This document shows positions 1 to 48,183 of a DNA stretch of 64,000 nucleotides, in pieces. The translations under genes and the position numbers were made by a program. Location of the stretch: contig QBYG01000005.1 in NCBI GenBank assembly GCA_003282945.1, positions 1 to 64,000 on the forward strand. Reading direction: 5' to 3'. The stretch comes from Pelagibacteraceae bacterium AG-325-E23 (GTDB lineage Bacteria; Pseudomonadota; Alphaproteobacteria; Pelagibacterales; Pelagibacteraceae). Numbering within the stretch: position 1 is the first letter of the stretch; each line of letters starts with the position of its first letter. Under the pieces are notes generated by a model, which was given only the letters and a program-made list of their open reading frames with translations, was not told where the DNA came from and made no database searches.

Positions 1-831
1 AACTCAGCCGCATGTTATGTCGAGTTTTTTAGAAATATTCCATTACTGTTGCAAATCTTCTTTTGGTATTACGCTGCTCTTAGAGCTTTACCTATGCCAG
101 AGAAAGCTAATGCGTGGTTTGGGGTAACTTATATGACGGTAAAAGGCTATTACATACCAGCAATGGTATGGGAAAATTTGAATATATTTTTATATTGTGG
201 ACTTGCAGCAATAATTTCAATCATTGTATTAAGGAATTATGCAAATAAATTAAGAGACACACAAGGTAAACAAATTCCAGTACTACTTTTTTCAGTTGCT
301 CTATTAATTGTTTTGCCTCTTTTATCATTCGTATTTGGCGGAGTATCTTTAGGATTTGAATTACCTGAGCTTAAAAAATTATCAAAAATTTCTTATATAT
401 ACGAAGGTGGGATAAGTTTACCACCTGAATTAATAGCATTAGTTCTAGCATTATCTTTATATACTTCTACTTTTGTAGCAGAGTGCGTTAGAGCTGGAAT
501 TGAGGGAGTTAGCAAAGGCCAAAAAGAAGCTGCTGCATCAGTTGGTTTGACGCCTAATCAAGTTTTAAAATTAGTTATTATGCCTCAAGCTTTAAGAATT
601 ATTATACCACCTACAACAAATCAATATTTAAATTTAACCAAAAATTCATCTTTGGCAGCTGCTATTGCATACCCTGATTTAGTGCTTGTTTTTGCAGGGA
701 CTGCTTTGATGCAGACAGGTAAGGCAATAGAAATTGTTTCAATAACAATGCTAACATATTTAACTATTAGTCTAACTATTGCAGCAATAATGAATTGGTA
801 TAACAAAAAAATTGAAATTAAAGAAAAGTAA
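1..831 (+). CDS. aapQ: General L-amino acid ABC transporter permease AapQ (5' end outside window)
   Basis: Inner-membrane permease subunit of a polar amino acid uptake system of the Aap/Bzt type. The frame is open from base 1; reading from there gives the family segment VEFFRNIPLLLQIFFWYYA, so the TTG at 49 is internal and the true start lies upstream of the window. Several hydrophobic helices follow. The last third carries the EAA loop that docks on the ATPase (EAAASVGLTPNQVLKLVIMP). It is 3 nt upstream of aapM in the same operon. The periplasmic binding protein AapJ would be expected just upstream, out of view. Confidence 0.93.
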   Translation, partial: NSAACYVEFFRNIPLLLQIFFWYYAALRALPMPEKANAWFGVTYMTVKGYYIPAMVWENLNIFLYCGLAAIISIIVLRNYANKLRDTQGKQIPVLLFSVALLIVLPLLSFVFGGVSLGFELPELKKLSKISYIYEGGISLPPELIALVLALSLYTSTFVAECVRAGIEGVSKGQKEAAASVGLTPNQVLKLVIMPQALRIIIPPTTNQYLNLTKNSSLAAAIAYPDLVLVFAGTALMQTGKAIEIVSITMLTYLTISLTIAAIMNWYNKKIEIKEK

Positions 832-834
832 ACA

Positions 835-2106
835 ATGCAAACATTAAATTTTTTAAAACCCAACAGAGATAATATTAAAAATTACTCTATTATTGGATCT
901 TTTTTAGTTTTAGTAAGTTTAATTGATGTCATATCAAATGCATTTCTAAAAATAAATTTAACGTCTTTTTTACCTGGTTCCTTGACTACTTTGTTTCCAT
1001 TAATCTTTGGATTGATTGGATTAAATATGATGAGAATTGATTATTCTGGAAATAAATCATTAGATTTATTAAACAAAAATATAAATACCAATAATTTTAA
1101 TGCTTTGTTAACTTTATTAATATTATTTTCAGTTTTAAAAGTTCTTCCTCAATCTCTAAGCTGGATGATTTTAGACGCCACTATTTCAGGTGACTCAAAA
1201 GATGCTTGTACAGGTACGGGTGCTTGTTGGACATACATTAAAGTTTGGTTTCGAAGATTTATGTATGGAATGTATCCCAATGAATTTCATTGGAGAATAA
1301 ACACTGCATTTATATTAGTTATAGCACTTGGATTTGTTGGGTATTTCATGAAGGATAATTTAAAAAAATATTTGGCATTATATTATGTTATTATCTATCC
1401 AGTAATTGCATATTTAGTTATCTACTATTTAATATCTGGTGGATCTTTTGGTCTCCAATGGGTTGAAACTGGAGCGTGGGGAGGATTGTCACTTACTTTT
1501 ATAGTTTCTTTTTTCTGTCTAATTTTCTGTTTCCCACTAGGTATGATATTTGCATTGGGGAGAAGATCTAATCTTCCAGCAATAAAATATATATCAATTT
1601 GTTATATTGAATTTTGGAGAGGTGTTCCATTGATTACAGTATTATTTATGTCATCTGTAATGTTTCCAATGTTTCTACCTGAAGATTTTTTTATGGATAA
1701 ATTGGTAAGGGTAATTATTGCGATTACATTATTCGAAGCCGCTTACTGTGCTGAAGTTATTAGAGGAGGTTTACAGTCATTACCTAGAGGTCAATACGAT
1801 GCAGCAAAATCTTTAGGAATGGGTTATTGGAAAATGCATATTTTTGTAATTTTACCTCAAGCACTAAAATTAGTTATACCTGGGATAGCAAATACATTTT
1901 TAGCCTTAGTTAAAGATACACCTCTAATTTTTGTTGTTGGTTTAGCTGAATTAGCAGGAATGCTAGCATTAGCAAAAACAAATCCAAAATGGCTAGGCTT
2001 TGCTATGGAAGGATATATTTTTGCATCAATAGTATTCTGGATTATATGCTATGCAATGAGTAAATATAGTTATAACTTAGAAGCTAAATACAAAACCGAG
2101 AGATAA
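835..2106 (+). CDS. aapM: General L-amino acid ABC transporter permease AapM
   Basis: Second membrane subunit of the amino acid importer, 423 aa. It is longer than AapQ because of an extra N-terminal group of helices, as is usual for AapM. A periplasmic Cys-containing segment (DACTGTGACWTYIK, about residues 122-135) separates the N-terminal helices from the permease core. The core has ECF/HisM-type features: FWRGVPLITVLF and the EAA loop AAKSLGMGYWKMHIFVILPQ. It starts at ATG 835, 3 nt after the aapQ stop, and ends 3 nt before aapP, so the three genes are one transcription unit. Confidence 0.93.
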   Translation: MQTLNFLKPNRDNIKNYSIIGSFLVLVSLIDVISNAFLKINLTSFLPGSLTTLFPLIFGLIGLNMMRIDYSGNKSLDLLNKNINTNNFNALLTLLILFSVLKVLPQSLSWMILDATISGDSKDACTGTGACWTYIKVWFRRFMYGMYPNEFHWRINTAFILVIALGFVGYFMKDNLKKYLALYYVIIYPVIAYLVIYYLISGGSFGLQWVETGAWGGLSLTFIVSFFCLIFCFPLGMIFALGRRSNLPAIKYISICYIEFWRGVPLITVLFMSSVMFPMFLPEDFFMDKLVRVIIAITLFEAAYCAEVIRGGLQSLPRGQYDAAKSLGMGYWKMHIFVILPQALKLVIPGIANTFLALVKDTPLIFVVGLAELAGMLALAKTNPKWLGFAMEGYIFASIVFWIICYAMSKYSYNLEAKYKTER

Positions 2107-2109
2107 AAA

Positions 2110-2844
2110 ATGTCTGATGCAATTATAAAAATTCAAAATATGAATAAATGGTTTGGTGATTTTCAAGTTTTAAAAAATATAAATCTTGAGGTTGAAGCAA
2201 ATAAAAAAATTGTTGTATGTGGACCATCTGGTTCAGGGAAATCTACATTAATTAGATGTATTAATAGATTAGAAGAGCACCAAGAAGGAGATATAATTGT
2301 TGATGGAAATGAATTATCAGAAAAAACAAAAGACATCGAAAAAATAAGAGCTGAAGTTGGAATGGTTTTTCAACAATTTAATTTATTTCCACATCTTTCA
2401 ATATTAGATAATTGCACACTTGCCCCTATTTGGGTTAAAAAAATGCCAAAAAAAGAAGCTCAAGAACTAGCGTTAGATCAACTTAAAAAAGTACAAATAG
2501 ATGATCAGGCAAATAAGTTCCCTGGTCAACTATCTGGAGGTCAACAACAACGTTGTGCGATAGCTAGAGCGCTATGTATGCAACCAAAAATCATGTTATT
2601 TGATGAACCAACATCTGCATTAGATCCAGAAATGATTAAAGAAGTACTTGATGCCATGGTAAATCTTGCAAAAGGTGGTATGACCATGATTGTTGTAACA
2701 CATGAGATGGGATTTGCTAAAGAAGTTGCTGATGAAGTGATTTTTATGGACGAAGGGATGATAGTTGAGAAGGCGGAAACCAAAGAATTCTTTGCCAACC
2801 CAAAGAGTGACAGAACTAAGCTTTTTTTAAGCCAAATTCTTTAA
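2110..2844 (+). CDS. aapP: General L-amino acid ABC transporter ATP-binding protein AapP
   Basis: Cytoplasmic ATPase that drives the AapQ/AapM permease pair; 244 aa, the normal family size. Visible motifs are Walker [10 protein letters not shown] (residues 38-46), the Q-loop VFQQFN, the ABC signature LSGGQQQR (141-148), Walker B IMLFDEP (161-167) and the switch histidine in VVTHEMGF. It is the last gene of the aap operon. The following 145 nt are noncoding and contain the promoter region of the next gene. High-affinity amino acid uptake fits an oligotrophic life style. Confidence 0.95.
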
Positions 2845-2960
2845 AATAATTCTAAAGACTTCATAAAAAGTTACTTGACAGCTTTAAGACTTATCAAAAA
2901 AATCAATTTTTTTTAAAATTATTTTACTTGCATAAAGTTTTCGATTTAGATTAACTCAGA

Positions 2961-2966
2961 TATAAT
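2961..2966 (+). promoter_or_regulatory. Probable -10 hexamer upstream of the XRE regulator
   Basis: A perfect TATAAT lies 24 nt before the ATG at 2990 in an otherwise noncoding gap. The -35 region is weak (TTTCGA-like at about 2939-2944, 16 nt spacer). A GAGGGG sequence at 2978-2983 sits in the position of a ribosome binding site. No terminator for the upstream aap operon is evident. Confidence 0.35.
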
Positions 2967-2989
2967 TTTTATTTGAAGAGGGGTCTTAA

Positions 2990-3361
2990 ATGGAAGAAAA
3001 TTTTAATAAACATCTGGGCAATAAGCTAAAGTTAAGAAGATTAGCGCTTGGTTTAACTCAAACTAAAGTAGCAAAAGCTATAAACGTAACATTTCAACAA
3101 ATTCAAAAGTACGAAAAAGGAACTAACGGTGTAAGTTCAATTAGATTGTTACAACTTTCAAATTATTTAAAAGTTCCAATTAATTATTTCTTTGAAGATT
3201 TTTCAGAATATTTAGTAAATCTTGATAAATCAAAAGAGGGACATATGAATGTAAACTATAACTTCTTAGTTAAAGTTTATTCAGAGTTAACACAGGATCA
3301 AAAAATTAAATTCGGAAAAAATTTACAAATAGCACAAATAAATACTTCTAAAGCTGTTTAA
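2990..3361 (+). CDS. XRE-family helix-turn-helix transcriptional regulator
   Basis: Predicted DNA-binding regulator, 123 aa. Residues about 9-65 form a Cro/CI-type helix-turn-helix (LGNKLKLRRLALGLTQTKVA, then FQQIQKYEKGTNGVSSIRLL), followed by the usual KVPINYFFED segment that closes the domain. The C-terminal 55 residues carry no recognisable effector domain. It stands alone between the aap operon and two tRNA genes on the opposite strand, so the target cannot be read from context. ATG 2990 has a good Shine-Dalgarno-like GAGGGG upstream. Confidence 0.85.
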   Translation: MEENFNKHLGNKLKLRRLALGLTQTKVAKAINVTFQQIQKYEKGTNGVSSIRLLQLSNYLKVPINYFFEDFSEYLVNLDKSKEGHMNVNYNFLVKVYSELTQDQKIKFGKNLQIAQINTSKAV

Positions 3362-3367
3362 TTGATT

Positions 3368-3443
3368 TGGCTCCTCGGGCAGGACTCGAACCTGCGACCA
3401 ATTGATTAACAGTCAACTGCTCTACCAACTGAGCTACCGAGGA
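3368..3443 (-). tRNA. tRNA-Asn (GTT)
   Basis: The reverse complement folds as a complete cloverleaf: acceptor TCCTCGG/CCGAGGA, D arm AGCTCAGTTGGTAGAGC, anticodon loop CTGTTAA with anticodon GTT, TpsiC arm with GGTTCGAGTCC, and discriminator G followed by an encoded CCA (3370-3368). Confidence 0.97.
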
Positions 3444-3492
3444 ATATTTTCTCACAACTTACTTTTTTTAAAATTTATCTCAATACTTATTT

Positions 3493-3566
3493 TGGAGGCA
3501 ACGCCCGGAATCGAACCGGGATACAAGGATTTGCAATCCTCTGCGTAACCATTCCGCCACGTTGCC
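3493..3566 (-). tRNA. tRNA-Cys (GCA)
   Basis: The reverse complement folds as a 74-nt cloverleaf: acceptor GGCAACG paired with CGTTGCC, anticodon loop TTGCAAA with anticodon GCA, TpsiC arm with GGTTCGATTCC. The discriminator base is U, the identity element for tRNA-Cys, followed by an encoded CCA. It lies about 50 nt upstream of tRNA-Asn in the same orientation, so the two may be co-transcribed. The 119 nt between it and valS hold nothing I recognise beyond AT-rich promoter-like sequence. Confidence 0.97.
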
Positions 3567-3685
3567 ATCAAATATAAAATATTTGGTAATCGACATTTGT
3601 ATAATCCATTTTGATCATTAGTCTATAAATTTAGCAATGATTTTCATTATTGTTTATTAATTTGATTAATTTATAAAACAAATCA

Positions 3686-6313
3686 ATGAGTTTTGATAAA
3701 TATGACCATAAAAATGTTGAGAATAAAATCTATGATTATTGGGAAAAAAATGAATTATTTAAACCCAAAGAAAACTCAAAAAAATTCTCAATTGTAATTC
3801 CACCACCAAATGTAACTGGAAGCCTTCATATGGGGCATGCTTTAAATAACTCTATTCAAGATGTTTTAACAAGATTTCATAGAATGAATAATTATGAAAC
3901 TTTATGGCAACCAGGTACAGACCACGCTGGTATTGCAACCCAAGCATTAGTTGAAAAAAAACTCGCAAAAGATGGTGTTAAAAAAAATGATTTAGGCAGA
4001 GAAAAATTTATTGAAAAAGTATGGGAATGGAAAAATCAGTATGGAGATATAATAATAAACCAACTGAAAAAACTTGGATGTTCTTGCGATTGGTCTCGTA
4101 ACGCTTTTACAATGGATGAAAATTTATCTAAGTCGGTAATTAAAGTATTTGTTGATCTTTATAATAATAAATTAATCTACAAAGCAAAAAAACTAGTTAA
4201 TTGGGATGTAGTTTTAAAAACAGCAATATCTGATTTAGAAGTTGATCAAAGAGAAGTTAATTCTAAACTTTATTATATAAATTACCCTATAGATGGATCA
4301 GATAAATTTATAACAATTGCAACAACTAGACCTGAAACTATGTTGGGAGATACTGCAATAGCAGTTAATCCTAAAGATGATAGATTTAAAAACATTGTTG
4401 GAAAGTCAGTTACAATACCTTTAGCAAATAGAAAAATAAAAGTAATAACAGATGATTATGCTGATCCTGAACAAGGAACAGGTGCAGTTAAAATTACCCC
4501 AGCCCATGATTTTAATGATTATGATGTAGGTGTAAGAAACAAGTTGGAAGTAGTTAATATATTTACTCCTGATGGAAAAATAAATGACAATGCACCTGAC
4601 CCATATAAAGGTTTAGATAGATTTGCTGCCAGAAAATTAATATTAGAACATCTTGAAGAAGGAAAATTTTTAGAAAAAATAGAAAAGTTAGTAAATAAAG
4701 TTCCTTATGGTGATAGATCTAATTCTATTATTGAACCTTATCTAACAGAACAATGGTTTGTTGATGCAAAAACTTTAGCCATCAAAGCAAAGGAAGTAGT
4801 AAATAATGGTAAGACTAAATTTTTTCCAGAAAATTGGTCTAAAACTTACTTTCAATGGATGGATAATATTGAACCTTGGTGCATTTCTCGTCAATTATGG
4901 TGGGGACACCAAATACCTGCTTGGTATGGACCTGACGGAAAAATCTTTGTTGCTGAAAATGAGGAGGAGTGCAAAATACAAGCAAAAGAATTCTATTCAA
5001 AAGATGTAGAATTAATAAGAGACGAGGATGTTTTAGATACTTGGTTTTCTTCAGGTCTTTGGCCTTTTGCAACATTAGGTTGGCCAGAAAAAACACCAGA
5101 GGTTGAAAAATTTTATCCAACAAGTGTTCTTGTTACTGGTTTTGATATCATATTTTTCTGGGTTGCCAGAATGATTATGATGGGAACGGAGTTTTTGAAG
5201 GAAGAACCTTTTAAAAATATATACGTTCATGCACTTGTTAGAGATGAAAAAGGGCAAAAGATGTCTAAGTCAAAAGGTAATGTAATTGATCCTTTAGAAC
5301 TTATTGAAAAATATAGCGCTGATGCTTTAAGATTTACTCTTTTGTCAATGGCATCACCTGGTCGTGATGTAAAATTGTCAGAAGATAGGGTTAAAGGTTA
5401 TAGAAATTTCTTAAATAAAGTTTGGAATGCTAATAATTTTTTAAGACAAAATGATTGTGATTTTAGCGACATTAAAAAACCTGAAAATCTTAAATTAACA
5501 ATTAATAAGTGGATATTATCAGAGTTAGTAAAAACTAAAAACGAGACAGAAAACAGTTTAAAAAACTATAGATTTGATGAAGCAGCAAAGAATATTTATC
5601 AGTTTGTATGGCATTCATTTTGTGACTGGTATTTAGAGCTATCTAAAACTGTATTTAATTCTAACAACGAAGAAGAAATTAAAGAATTAAGACAAACATC
5701 CACATATGTTTTTAGAGAAATTTTAATAATTCTTCATCCATTTATTCCATTTGTTACAGAGGAAATTTGGTTAAATAATAAGTTAGATAAAAATGGTGAT
5801 GAATTTTTAATGCATGCTAATTGGTTAGATGGCGATTATCATGAAAAAAAATCTTATGATGAAATCAATAATATTATTAATTTTATTACCTCCATTAGAT
5901 CATTTAAAAATGAATTGAACATTAGCCCTGGATCATTTATTGAAATTTCAACAGCAAATATAAATAAGGAATATAAAAACTTTTTATCTTCTAATGAAAA
6001 TATATTAAAAAAAAATGGAAGAATTAAAAACTTTCATGAAAATGATTTAAAAAAATCATCTGCAAGTATTGTCATTAACGGAGAGTTATTCAAACTATAT
6101 TTTGACCAAGATGTTGATCTTAATATGATTAAAACAACGCTAGAGAAGAAAATCACAAAAATTAATGAAGAAATGAAAAAAATTGATACTAGATTGTCAA
6201 ATAAATTCTTTATGGACCGTGCGCCACAAAATATAGTAGATCAAGAGAAAAGCAACTTTGCTAATCTAGAAAAAGATGTTAAAAAAATAGAACTAACCCT
6301 TAAAGGTTTATAA
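3686..6313 (+). CDS. valS: Valyl-tRNA synthetase
   Basis: Class I aminoacyl-tRNA synthetase that charges tRNA-Val; cytoplasmic, 875 aa, full length for the family. The N-terminal Rossmann signature is [15 protein letters not shown] with HMGH at 48-51. The CP1 editing domain follows ([17 protein letters not shown]). The KMSKS loop is at 525-529 ([13 protein letters not shown]). A C-terminal lysine-rich coiled coil (about 800-875) is the usual tRNA-binding arm. The stop codon shares one base with the ilvD start (TAATG), so the two are translationally coupled. Confidence 0.97.
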
Positions 6314-44620: not shown

Positions 44621-44710
44621 TGGCGGAGAGACTGGGATTCGAACCCAGGAAAGAGTTGCCCCTTTGTCGGTTTTCAAGACCGATGCTTTCAACCGCTCAG
44701 CCATCTCTCC
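44621..44710 (-). tRNA. tRNA-Ser (TGA)
   Basis: 90-nt type II tRNA: acceptor GGAGAGA paired with TCTCTCC, long variable arm, anticodon loop with TGA (44674-44676), TpsiC arm GGTTCGAATCC, discriminator G, encoded CCA. The part from the anticodon loop to the 5' end, plus the upstream promoter, is duplicated 2,507 bp away at 47179-47261, which marks it as the integration site of the island. Confidence 0.97.
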
Positions 44711-44754
44711 GTGAGCAAGGTTTTATAAGTATAATATTTAAATTCAACAAAAAA
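44672..44754. other. attL-like repeat: anticodon loop to 5' end of tRNA-Ser plus promoter
   Basis: Matches 47179-47261 at a constant offset of 2,507 bp. The first 42 nt (44672-44713) are identical, then one mismatch, then 11 identical nt; the remaining promoter part is about 70% identical by eye. This is the copy belonging to the intact tRNA gene. Confidence 0.8.
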
Positions 44755-44785
44755 ACAGAGCCTATATTTTAGGAAATTTTAACTT

Positions 44786-44807
44786 TGCTTATAGTTTGCT
44801 TATAGTT
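44786..44807. repeat. Tandem 11-mer TGCTTATAGTT x2, left copy
   Basis: Two perfect head-to-tail copies of TGCTTATAGTT, 73 nt inside the left tRNA core. The same 22 nt recur in the same orientation at 47042-47063. The pair frames the six small genes and lies just upstream of the first ATG (44823). Confidence 0.9.
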
Positions 44808-44822
44808 ATCCTATAAAATCAT

Positions 44823-45143
44823 ATGAATAAAAATTCTATTAAATTATTTTTTTTAATTCCAGCAATTTTATTGATTATTGCCCCATTGATATCTTTTCCT
44901 TATAGATTTTACACATTATTAAGAATCATAGTAACTTTAACATCGGCTGCAATAATTTATCAAAGTTATAAAATTAACAAAGGAATTAATGAACCCTCAA
45001 TAATTTTTCTGTTTATTTTGATTTTATATAATCCTTTAATTCCTATCTATCTAAGTAGAGAAGTGTGGCTACCTATAAATTTTGCAACCTCTGGAATTTA
45101 TTTATATACTCTTTTTAAAATAAAAAAAATTTTAAGCATTTAA
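44823..45143 (+). CDS. Small integral membrane protein (island gene 1, DUF6804-like)
   Basis: 106 aa with three or four hydrophobic helices. The pattern PAILLIIAPL...FYTLLRIIVTLTSAAI...LFILILYNPLIPIYLSREVWLPINFA resembles a widespread family of small membrane proteins of unknown function (I believe DUF6804, from memory). First gene of the island, starting 16 nt after the left 11-mer pair. The next gene begins 2 nt after its stop, so it heads an apparent operon. Confidence 0.75.
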   Translation: MNKNSIKLFFLIPAILLIIAPLISFPYRFYTLLRIIVTLTSAAIIYQSYKINKGINEPSIIFLFILILYNPLIPIYLSREVWLPINFATSGIYLYTLFKIKKILSI

Positions 45144-45145
45144 TT

Positions 45146-45421
45146 ATGCCTCTTGGTCCATCAGAAATTGAATATTATAAAAATATTGTAGCAGATCTTG
45201 ATGAAAAGGACTTAAAACCTACTCACGATATGTTAATGAATTCTTTAAAAGCTTGTAAGGCAGCAATGGATACAAGTAAAACATTAGATCAATTTGTTGA
45301 ACATATAGTTTGGATTGATTGTAGGCTTCAAGGTTATTCTTCAACAGGTATGAAGTCTTGGTGGTTTAGAACTAAAGCTAGAGCAAAGTATTATAAAGTT
45401 GGTGGATTGGGAGGGAAATAG
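45146..45421 (+). CDS. Small soluble protein of unknown function (island gene 2)
   Basis: 91 aa, no signal peptide or membrane helix. A mostly helical, charged first part (EIEYYKNIVADLDEKDL) is followed by two cysteines (SLKACKAAMD, VWIDCRLQGY) and a basic Trp-rich end (MKSWWFRTKARAKYY). I do not recognise the family. It is 2 nt after gene 1 and its stop abuts the ATG of gene 3. Confidence 0.7.
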   Translation: MPLGPSEIEYYKNIVADLDEKDLKPTHDMLMNSLKACKAAMDTSKTLDQFVEHIVWIDCRLQGYSSTGMKSWWFRTKARAKYYKVGGLGGK

Positions 45422-45583
45422 ATGATAAAATTAATAGTAACACTCGGTATATTATTGGGAATATGCGGTTTAGTTAAATTATTATTTGGAACAGGATGGC
45501 CATTATATATAGTTGGTGGGATTGGTATTTTTATCTGGTTATCAATAAATAATGATTTCTTTAACAGGATTGAAGGTGGTTAA
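45422..45583 (+). CDS. 53-aa two-helix membrane peptide (island gene 3)
   Basis: A short open frame from ATG 45422, directly after the stop of gene 2. It encodes two hydrophobic segments (about 3-20 and 25-41) with a Gly-rich turn (LFGTGWPLYIVGGIG) and a polar C-terminal tail. Family unknown. Start-to-stop spacing and the strong coding look (no overlap with anything else, next gene 8 nt later) support it as real. Confidence 0.65.
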   Translation: MIKLIVTLGILLGICGLVKLLFGTGWPLYIVGGIGIFIWLSINNDFFNRIEGG

Positions 45584-45591
45584 AATTTTAT

Positions 45592-46185
45592 ATGTTTAAT
45601 TGGTTTAAAAAGAAAAATAAGAACAAAGGTTTTACATCAACTAAAGATTTAGATTCTGAAAATCCTCTCTTAGATTTTTTACAACAAGAAACAACAAGAA
45701 TAATGGATGAAGCAGATGCAAAAAAAGCTCCAAATAAATTACAAAAGAATATTAGAAAAAAGTTTACAAATACATCTAAACAAAAAAGTAAAAAAAACTC
45801 AGATCCAAAAGCAAAATTTATAAACCATCTACAAAAGTCTCTAAAAACTGCGTTGGGAAAAAATTTAAATAAAAATCTAGATGTAAAAGATAAATATCTC
45901 CTTGGCTACATTTATGGATTATGTGATTACACAAATGACCTGCATAATTTAGATAATGAAATAAATGGGATAGGTACTTTTATGGAAATGCATATGTTTT
46001 TTTTCAAAAATGCTGATCCAGGTGATTTAGGAAGCATTATGGGCATGACTGGTAAATTAAGTTCTTCGGGTGATAAAACTTTTCTTAATGGTGCAATTGA
46101 TGGCGGAAGAGCTTTAGGAAATGAGAAAATTTATAGCGAACCTCCAAAAAAGGCTTACGGTAAATTAGTATCGCATTTGTCATAA
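45592..46185 (+). CDS. Lysine-rich cytoplasmic protein of unknown function (island gene 4)
   Basis: 197 aa. The first 75 residues are very basic and probably disordered (FNWFKKKNKNKGF, later NIRKKFTNTSKQKSKKN). The rest looks folded, with a helical segment FINHLQKSLKTALGKNL, KYLLGYIYGLCDYTNDLHNL and a Gly/Met-rich stretch PGDLGSIMGMTGKL. I recognise no domain. It follows gene 3 by 8 nt. Confidence 0.7.
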   Translation: MFNWFKKKNKNKGFTSTKDLDSENPLLDFLQQETTRIMDEADAKKAPNKLQKNIRKKFTNTSKQKSKKNSDPKAKFINHLQKSLKTALGKNLNKNLDVKDKYLLGYIYGLCDYTNDLHNLDNEINGIGTFMEMHMFFFKNADPGDLGSIMGMTGKLSSSGDKTFLNGAIDGGRALGNEKIYSEPPKKAYGKLVSHLS

Positions 46186-46227
46186 ATTTTACATAATTAA
46201 AACAATATTTATTTTTATAAATAATTT

Positions 46228-46416
46228 ATGGTTGATTATTTATTTTATCTGTGTGTTGATATTTTAGCTTGGTTGGCAAATGCCACAGGCACAACCTATG
46301 AATTGGTAAATATAATTATATTTGTAATTGGTTATCCAATTTTTGTGATTTTGTTATTATTAATAATTTATTTTCAAAGAAAAAAAATTAATAACTTAAG
46401 AAGTAATAAATTTTAA
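46228..46416 (+). CDS. Small single- or two-helix membrane protein (island gene 5)
   Basis: 62 aa with hydrophobic segments at about 3-17 and 26-50 and a basic tail (FQRKKINNLRSNKF). No family recognised. 42 nt after gene 4, on the same strand. Confidence 0.55.
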   Translation: MVDYLFYLCVDILAWLANATGTTYELVNIIIFVIGYPIFVILLLLIIYFQRKKINNLRSNKF

Positions 46417-46479
46417 AAAACTTTTTTTGAACAAAATTCAGTCCTAATAGAAACAACATGGTATGTATTAATATAATTA

Positions 46480-47037
46480 ATGCGTAGGATTGTAAATAGC
46501 TCCTTTCTTTTGTTAATTTTGTTAACATTGATCCATTTAAACGCATACGCTCATGAGGACTGGGAAGTAGCCAGATATGAAAATCAAAGCTACGCCATAG
46601 TATCTGGTGAAATCCAGTATTCAGATAAGTTTTCATTTGTTTTATCTCCCGATGAACAATGTGAAGAAGTTAGTTCAATGTTTTCTTTTTTTACTTGGAA
46701 CAATCCAGGAGATTTTGATCAATTGATTGGTAGAAGAGTCCCGATAAAGTTAAACGATATTGAAACAACTGCTGAGGTACTATCTACGTTTCCTTACAAA
46801 GAGGGAATAAAAGTTGTTTTCTATTTTGGAACATTTCCACTTAAGGAATATATTTATACCTTGTACAAATATTATGAGTCTGAAGGGATATATCAAATTA
46901 AAATTGTTGATGGTTTGAATTTTAATGCAAATAAGTATTTTGATATAACTGAAAACAATTGGAAGTTTAATAAACTTATCTCATCTGTATATGAGGCTTA
47001 TGAAATTTGCAAAAGTATTAACGACAAGAATATATAA
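46480..47037 (+). CDS. Exported protein of unknown function (island gene 6)
   Basis: 185 aa with a clear signal peptide (MRRIVNSSFLLLILLTLIHL, cleavage probably after AYA at residues 22-24), hence periplasmic or surface. The mature part has a DEQCEEV segment and a second Cys near the end (AYEICKSI) that could form a disulfide, and mainly beta-type sequence. No family recognised. Last gene of the island; its stop is 5 nt before the right 11-mer pair. Confidence 0.7.
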   Translation: MRRIVNSSFLLLILLTLIHLNAYAHEDWEVARYENQSYAIVSGEIQYSDKFSFVLSPDEQCEEVSSMFSFFTWNNPGDFDQLIGRRVPIKLNDIETTAEVLSTFPYKEGIKVVFYFGTFPLKEYIYTLYKYYESEGIYQIKIVDGLNFNANKYFDITENNWKFNKLISSVYEAYEICKSINDKNI

Positions 47038-47041
47038 TTCC

Positions 47042-47063
47042 TGCTTATAGTTTGCTTATAGTT
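47042..47063. repeat. Tandem 11-mer TGCTTATAGTT x2, right copy
   Basis: Identical to 44786-44807, same orientation, 116 nt inside the right tRNA copy. The unequal distances from the two cores (73 and 116 nt) are like those of arm-type sites on the two sides of a phage attachment site. Confidence 0.9.
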
Positions 47064-47064
47064 T

Positions 47065-47082
47065 TTAGCTTAGGCAAGCTAA
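47065..47082. other. Hairpin next to the right 11-mer pair
   Basis: TTAGCTT-AGGC-AAGCTAA: a 7-bp stem with a 4-nt loop, directly after the direct repeat. A T6 run lies some 10 nt further on, so it might end transcription of gene 6, but it is not a canonical terminator. It could also be part of a recombination site. Confidence 0.4.
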
Positions 47083-47178
47083 TAATAGTGTGTTTTTTGT
47101 AAAAGCTAAATTTAAGAAAGTTAGCAATGGCTTGATAAGTATGTGAAACGTCTTAGGTTGAGTAGGGGATGCCCAGTA

Positions 47179-47261
47179 TTTCAAGACCGATGCTTTCAAC
47201 CGCTCAGCCATCTCTCCGTGTGCAAGGTTTTATTATTATTAATATATATTTCAACAATAAA
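47179..47261 (-). pseudogene. Partial tRNA-Ser copy (attR-like): 5' half and promoter
   Basis: Duplicate of tRNA-Ser(TGA) from the anticodon loop to the 5' end (47217 to 47179 on the minus strand) with its upstream promoter region. There is no 3' half, variable arm or TpsiC arm beside it, so it cannot make a tRNA. The 115 nt between it and the right 11-mer pair are noncoding. It is what remains of the original tRNA 5' end after insertion. Confidence 0.85.
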
Positions 47262-47301
47262 ATGACTTAAGAAGTTAGTCAAAATATTCAGATATTTTAA
47301 A

Positions 47302-48183
47302 ATGAACAAAAAAAATTTTAATAAAGGAGTTTTGCTTACATCCTTTGGTTCGTTTTGGTGGGGTTTTTTTGGTGTTATTTACTTTAAATATATTTCCTTT
47401 GCAGGTCATGTAGAAGTATTAATTCATAGAAGTGTTTGGACAGCTTTTGTATTAATCGTTACTACTTTTTTATTTTCTAAGTGGAGTATTTTTAAAAAAA
47501 TTCTTAATGATAAGAAGAAATTATTTATTCTTTTTATTTCTGGTTTTTTAATTTTTATTAATTGGGGAGTGTGGATTTATGCCGTTAGTGTAGATAAAAT
47601 AATTGATGCAAGTTTTGGTTATTTTATCATGCCTATCATAAGTGTATTTCTAGGTAATTTTTTTTTTAAAGAACCTATTACTAAAAAAGGAAGAATTTCG
47701 ATCTTTTTAGTAATTATTTCTGTCAGTTATTTATTGATAATAGATTTTAATTCAATTCCATGGGTAGGTTTAATTGTAGCCTTAAGTTGGAGTTTTTATA
47801 ATTTATTTAGAAAAAAAATTAACGTAGAAACTGATATTGGACTTCTTATAGAAAGTTTGTACATACTTCCTTTTGTATTAGTTGCATTTTACTTTATAAG
47901 TATAAATAACTACAACGACTTCAGTTTGACTAACCCTTCATTGATGCCATTGTTAATGTTGGCAGGACCAATGACAGTGATTCCACTTTTTTTGTATGTA
48001 AGAGGTGTTGAATTAGCTGGGTTAGGACCAGCTGGAATGATTTTTTATATTACTCCTACTTTGCAATTTATTCTTGGTTTTTTTATTTATAACGAGCAAT
48101 TTAATATAAATCAGTTAGTTAGTTTTATTTTAATATGGATTGCTGTATTTATATATCTGAAAGATATTTATGAAAAAAATTAA
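47302..48183 (+). CDS. rarD: RarD/EamA-family transporter
   Basis: 293-aa membrane protein with about ten helices in the drug/metabolite transporter superfamily. RarD-type features: SFGSFWWGFFGVIYFKYI near the N-terminus, HRSVWTAFVL, SFGYFIMPIISVFLGNFFFKE, and LGPAGMIFYITPTLQFILGFFIYNE. Substrate unknown. First gene to the right of the island; overlaps the next gene by 14 nt. Confidence 0.87.
   Translation: MNKKNFNKGVLLTSFGSFWWGFFGVIYFKYISFAGHVEVLIHRSVWTAFVLIVTTFLFSKWSIFKKILNDKKKLFILFISGFLIFINWGVWIYAVSVDKIIDASFGYFIMPIISVFLGNFFFKEPITKKGRISIFLVIISVSYLLIIDFNSIPWVGLIVALSWSFYNLFRKKINVETDIGLLIESLYILPFVLVAFYFISINNYNDFSLTNPSLMPLLMLAGPMTVIPLFLYVRGVELAGLGPAGMIFYITPTLQFILGFFIYNEQFNINQLVSFILIWIAVFIYLKDIYEKN

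Follow-up and report, generated by a model that had tools for sequence, protein, structure and literature searches.

A 64,000-nt stretch of the genome of Pelagibacteraceae bacterium AG-325-E23 (contig QBYG01000005.1, positions 1 to 64,000; hereafter the window) holds an element of about 2.5 kb that has the same 22-mer, two perfect copies of the 11-mer TGCTTATAGTT in tandem, near each of its ends. With a probability of about 0.8, these 22-mers are arm-type sites for a large tyrosine recombinase, which the element does not encode and a helper would supply, the element itself being a passenger cassette. Elements of this anatomy recur in the genus, with matched left and right pairs, with empty sites and with helper-class elements of the same layout.

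The first-pass annotation had read the 22-mers as arm sites of a lost or trans-acting integrase. Comparison with related elements gives an integrase acting in trans good support: the pair recurs at a near-constant place in other elements; left and right pairs agree within elements and differ between them at three independent targets; integrase-bearing elements at the same targets have their own core flanked by such sites; and the N-terminus of that integrase resembles solved arm-binding domains in a model of moderate confidence.

The element at tRNA-Ser(UGA)

The element lies between tRNA-Ser(UGA) and a transporter-like gene that starts at 47302. The intact tRNA gene, the integration target, is at 44621..44710 on the minus strand (ARAGORN; Rfam RF00005). 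A repeat search gave an exact core of 42 nt, made up of 39 nt of the tRNA 5′ half and 3 nt upstream of it, with its left copy at 44672..44713 and its right copy at 47179..47220; the same core is present in relatives. The crossover would take place at TTTCAAG, in the anticodon loop, within this core. The left arm (44714..44785), delimited by comparing arms among relatives, is similar to chromosomal sequence that lies upstream of the tRNA, 44672-44755 and 47179-47262 being 87% identical across 84 nt, and it probably supplies the promoter of the rebuilt tRNA. It is followed by the left tandem pair of TGCTTATAGTT, the proposed integrase arm sites (44786..44807, plus strand), which was located by exact search and has its left-right match in relatives. 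Adjoining this pair is a motif of consensus ATCCTATAAAATCCTAT (44808..44824, plus strand; one mismatch in the window), found to be conserved when cassettes were compared and possibly the promoter of the cargo.

The six main ORFs of the cargo are all on the plus strand. The first, of 106 aa (44823..45143), belongs to DUF6804 (Pfam PF20619, E 5e-19), the sole Pfam family above cut-off among the six. No family was assigned to those of 91 aa (45146..45421), 53 aa (45422..45583) and 62 aa (46228..46416), and none above its cut-off to that of 197 aa (45592..46185). The last ORF, of 185 aa (46480..47037), also has no family, and its homologue is the last gene of a related cassette (L062). The right tandem pair of TGCTTATAGTT (47042..47063, plus strand; exact search) comes next, and then a right arm block (47064..47178, plus strand) that is conserved in an alignment of 27 rows and has no conserved RNA structure. 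The chromosomal gene past the element (47302..48183, plus strand), which we take to be a RarD/EamA-like transporter, also adjoins the elements of relatives and the tRNA of empty sites.

Pfam and PHROG searches showed no integrase encoded by the six main ORFs, and in PHROG these ORFs had no match below E 0.01. The element thus keeps its att repeats and has no recombinase gene, as a passenger element would, and short repeated sites flank the core on both sides at set distances, as in a lambda-like att site. A prophage or pelagiphage remnant was considered and rejected: the PHROG search gave no phage structural gene among the six ORFs, and no relative was found in the viral contigs and phage records searched.

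An exact repeat search agreed with the earlier report of an identical 22-mer, made of two perfect 11-mers, at 44786-44807 and 47042-47063, and listed it as a perfect two-copy repeat of the window. The distances to the cores, given before as 73 and 116 nt, were each one too long: the left pair is 72 nt from its core and the right pair 115 nt. TGCTTATAGTT has exactly four copies in the window, all on the plus strand (starts 44786, 44797, 47042 and 47053), against an expected mean of 0.05, and none of 100 dinucleotide shuffles reached four. The whole genome holds eight exact 11-mers, the four in the element and four single copies elsewhere, none of them in tandem; no tRNA was found in stretches of 2.3-3.0 kb around the four single copies. 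Allowing up to 2 mismatches, the tandem 22-mer was present in 1 of 397 genomes of the family, the window's own. The exact 22-mer was also found in two further SAR11 genomes, AG-325-A11 and AG-404-J20, in both beside the same core and chromosomal neighbour genes as in the window and with different cargo. It thus stands beside the core in two more SAR11 genomes, and the result that would have spoken against arm sites, an 11-mer widespread outside attachment regions or missing from the vicinity of every other core, was not obtained.

Related cassettes and their matched pairs

Relatives were sought with a sequence-only profile of the pair and the right block. This matched 35 of 399 genomes of the genus at E ≤ 0.01, and the match was strong (E ≤ 1.2e-14) in 22 of the 399, the window's own genome included. 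The regions fetched mostly consisted of tRNA-Ser, one or more elements and then the same chromosomal gene. Core-to-core lengths ranged from 251 bp to 14.7 kb, and one genome (G536) had three elements in tandem. In six genomes picked from those with no match to the profile, the intact tRNA was in every case (6/6) followed directly by the transporter gene, so that the site was empty.

Restriction systems were found among the cargo of three loci, type III in L054, type IIG in L046 and MmeI-like in L058, and the cassettes may therefore spread phage defence. At another locus (L063 7282-7533) a cargo-free element of 251 bp was observed between two cores, with a single 11-mer pair serving both arms. 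At L047 2012 and L058 18059 the right arm block was of a second type, with GGAGGTAAAAGTGAATCCTAGGTA as its last letters ahead of the core.

The pairs were compared in 19 core-to-core stretches, a set that excludes all loci with fewer than two cores. The left pair started 113-115 nt after the start of the core in all 19, and the right pair lay 135-138 nt before the next core in 18 and 127 nt before it in the remaining one. The left and right pairs of the same element were identical at a mean of 20.3 of 22 positions, compared with 15.0 of 22 for pairs from different elements, and many were exactly identical. None of 20,000 shuffles reached the observed value, the highest being 18.2. Two stretches, each scoring 15, were outliers. 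One of these (L061) contains an inner decayed core and, when split there into two elements, has a left pair that agrees with the inner right pair at 11/11; the other (L047) remains a mismatch (8/11).

In the alignment of 27 rows, pairwise identity was 0.51-0.53 at letters 1-7 of the 11-mer and 0.78 over the remainder of the block. It is thus the arm's most variable stretch that agrees between the two ends of an element. Adjacent elements in tandem usually differ in these letters, at a rate expected by chance given the few exact matches overall.

The motif ATCCTATAAAATCCTAT, which directly follows the left pair in cassettes, was found with up to 2 mismatches in 95 of 201 genomes of the genus, compared with about 31 for the reversed pattern. 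When 30 motif loci were read, 24 had the tandem pair, two had a single copy and four had none. The targets of the cassette family are tRNA-Leu(UAA), tRNA-Ser(UGA) and the 5′ end of a small gene, to which 11, five and seven of the 30 loci belonged, respectively.

The matching of left and right was then retested with the left letters anchored solely on the motif; this omits 7 core pairs that lack the motif and every stretch shorter than 600 nt, and the sets for tRNA-Leu and the gene site came from 20 regions chosen among the motif matches, plus L097. Identity within an element was 10.4 of 11 for tRNA-Ser (n = 16), 10.2 for tRNA-Leu (n = 11) and 10.8 for the gene site (n = 8), compared with 8.1, 7.4 and 8.2 between elements, and for each target 0 of 20,000 shuffles reached the observed value. 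Past the tRNA-Leu elements of L097, six near-repeated pilin-like genes were observed (419-4075).

Integrase-bearing relatives and other readings of the pairs

Elements with an integrase are rarer than cassettes and have the same arm layout, together with a tyrosine recombinase of 530-570 aa and an AEP primase. One such relative is at the same site as the window element, tRNA-Ser(UGA): in genome G664, a 9-kb element stands ahead of a cassette and encodes a RusA-like protein, a primase with AEP-TOTE and DUF5906 domains and, adjoining the right core, a protein of 558 aa. This protein matched PHROG integrases (E 6.5e-15) and shares 35% identity with a PF00589 protein of G248; a small protein of 119 aa, possibly with an HTH, is encoded near it. 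Integrase relatives were found in 6 of 399 genomes of the genus and in 4 of 367 of the family, two of these being common to the genus set of six. The integrase elements of G248, G496 and G182 are at tRNA-Leu(UAA). Another integrase relative was seen beside tRNA-Ser(GCU), a further possible target (L098 238-2026).

In the integrase-bearing elements examined, the left pair was not observed to be followed by the motif ATCCTATAAAATCCTAT, which is common in cassettes. The second type of right block occurs both in the integrase element of G664 and in the cassette of L058, whose cargo includes the MmeI-like restriction enzyme. In a different genus, L163 (G191:C13, 1-620) has both arms around one core and an integrase adjacent, and chromosomal sequence is missing from its flanks. 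An excised circle and the joint of an array are both possible readings of this contig, whose ends do not overlap.

A structural model of the G664 integrase (pLDDT 73, pTM 0.46) was compared with solved structures. Residues 10-111 align with the arm-binding domain of the HPI integrase (VIA Z 9.1, rmsd 2.2, 77/77 residues), and the rest aligns with tyrosine recombinases. With moderate confidence, the model suggests that the integrase of the helper class, present in the G664 element and absent from that of the window, has an arm-binding N-terminus.

Both arms of the G664 element carry TGTCTCAAGTT, the letters of cassettes L050 and L063. The letters of the G248 element are those of cassette L140, and the letters of the G496 element are those of L138 and of element 2 of L097. 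In 3 of 6 integrase-bearing elements, then, the 11-mer is that of a cassette at the same target in another genome; the letters of the elements of G182, G526 (L099) and G191 (L163) had no equal among the cassettes compared. Exact sharing of letters among cassettes was estimated by eye at about 1-4% per pair. Because cassettes share letters in a few percent of pairs, the equality between helper and cassette is suggestive and not proof, and some of it may be chance.

The cognate integrase for TGCTTATAGTT arms was not found in any genome searched with the G664 integrase protein or its alignment, and the same searches gave no G664-type relative in the window's own genome, which is 82% complete. A search for PF00589, which covered 26 genomes, missed the G664 integrase, and searches were therefore also run with that protein and its alignment. 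An integrase hidden in the elements had been a candidate; the PF00589 search gave mostly one frame of 300-328 aa per genome, outside the elements, which is presumably the housekeeping Xer, and the candidate was rejected.

Viral contigs gave no match for the conserved block, the cassette motif, the integrase alone or the integrase alignment, and a tblastn search for the G664-type integrase gave none in 50,697 phage records. The exact 22-mer had one match among viral contigs (L001), in a contig with phage-like genes and with no tRNA called, which was taken as chance and rejected as the helper. Six viral contigs with the core were rejected as att sites, since each carries whole tRNA-Ser genes. 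The first-pass annotation had pointed to pelagiphages and SAR11 islands as places to look for a helper; a pelagiphage helper is not supported, since neither the arms nor the integrase turned up in any viral contig searched.

The two 22-mers could be identical by origin, if cargo had entered the single pair of a cargo-free att element and duplicated this target. The 251-bp element of L063, with one pair between two cores, is what such a precursor would look like, and many left and right pairs are exactly identical; a deletion between the pairs, however, explains L063 equally well. Integrase-bearing elements and the gene site have right-hand sites with other spacing, which are not a copied 22-mer, and in part of these elements the letters of left and right nevertheless agree. 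The window element, moreover, is homologous to L061 at its left (82% identity, 754 nt) and to L062 at its right (88% identity, 858 nt), and the left pair of L061 has the same letters as the right pair of L062, yet those of the window differ from these at both ends. Target duplication is therefore improbable.

It is slightly less probable again that the pairs are operators or part of the cargo promoters, bound by a regulator and not by an integrase. The left pair is just upstream of the cargo ORFs and adjoins the conserved TATAAAAT-like motif, and integrase sites can overlap promoters. Regulation of the cargo would leave unaccounted for, however, the second, matching pair that follows the last gene at a set distance from the core, and the sites found where an integrase gene begins. 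It is very improbable that the right block, with its pair, is transcribed from the displaced tRNA promoter as a structured RNA. The block is conserved and downstream of the displaced tRNA 5′ half, but RNAalifold gave -0.21 kcal/mol and 2 pairs on 27 rows, and Rfam gave the tRNA alone plus matches below cut-offs.

Proposed mechanism and known systems

A cassette consists of a left arm (the 5′ half of the target, its upstream region and the tandem pair), a short motif, the cargo, the second pair and a right arm that has the core at its end. If the 22-mers are arm-type sites served by a helper, an element of the AEP-primase class would provide the integrase in trans. The arm domain of this integrase, reading the same letters, would grip the cassette at its left and right 11-mer pairs and, with the arms so paired, its catalytic domain would swap strands at the anticodon loop of the cores, the cassette being excised or inserted. 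An incoming cassette would carry the tRNA 5′ half and the upstream region, so that the target gene would be rebuilt with the element's own 5′ end and the displaced tRNA half would stay at the far end of the element. Binding by this integrase family, its action in trans, and the movement and transfer of the cassettes are what we infer from the comparison of sequences.

It is proposed more tentatively, at a little short of even odds, that each target gene has one core and that the fast-changing seven letters of the arm are an address that sets which helper moves which cassette. Arrayed cassettes could then be moved independently, and a cassette could switch helper by changing its address at both ends.

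Obvious mobile elements are few in SAR11 bacteria, which are very abundant, and the movement of their variable genes, including those for defence, is poorly understood. With cassette ends that can be read at several targets, the genome sequence suffices for listing cassettes, candidate helpers and empty sites. The matched arm letters are a natural data set on the choice of DNA by the arm-binding domains of integrases, and they offer a testable idea of the specificity between helper and passenger.

In lambda-type attP sites, short direct arm-type repeats lie on both sides of the core. The present sites are likewise short direct repeats on both sides, about 70-140 nt from the core; unlike those of lambda-type attP, they differ among relatives with one core, and the integrase is absent from the element.

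In the open-licence literature searched, including the available parts of PMC12595487 and PMC7318151, no description of SAR11 cassettes or of matched arm pairs was found. tRNA-anchored cassettes are known from marine Actinobacteria, as described in the available part of PMC7771536. The ssrA islands of Dehalococcoides, in the sections of PMC3146451 to hand, are att-flanked islands in tandem at one RNA gene, with or without a recombinase, for which movement aided by neighbours has been proposed. The SAR11 cassettes resemble these and cis-mobilizable elements, in that some islands have no integration module. According to the same sections, the ssrA islands use a serine recombinase and the 3′ end of the tmRNA gene; in the SAR11 family, in contrast, the recombinase is a large tyrosine recombinase, which would act on the cassettes in trans, the targets are 5′ ends of genes, and the variable arm pairs match.

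CALINs, as presented in the accessible text of PMC11389934, are similarly arrays of cargo without an integrase, which need one in trans. Each SAR11 cassette differs from them in having its own arm pair and a tRNA or gene start as its target, with the crossover probably in the tRNA core. Tycheposons, in the available sections of PMC10872708, are also from streamlined marine bacteria and have a tRNA at one end; they are like the helper class in their primase and in the tyrosine recombinase at the end away from the tRNA. The window element is unlike them in that it has no recombinase (the G664 element has one, far from the tRNA) and carries the tRNA 5′ half, and the matching of arm letters is not described for tycheposons in those sections. 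As far as the literature searched goes, passengers like CIMEs and CALINs are known, and what is new is the SAR11 family, with its targeting of 5′ ends at several genes and its matched hypervariable arm pairs.
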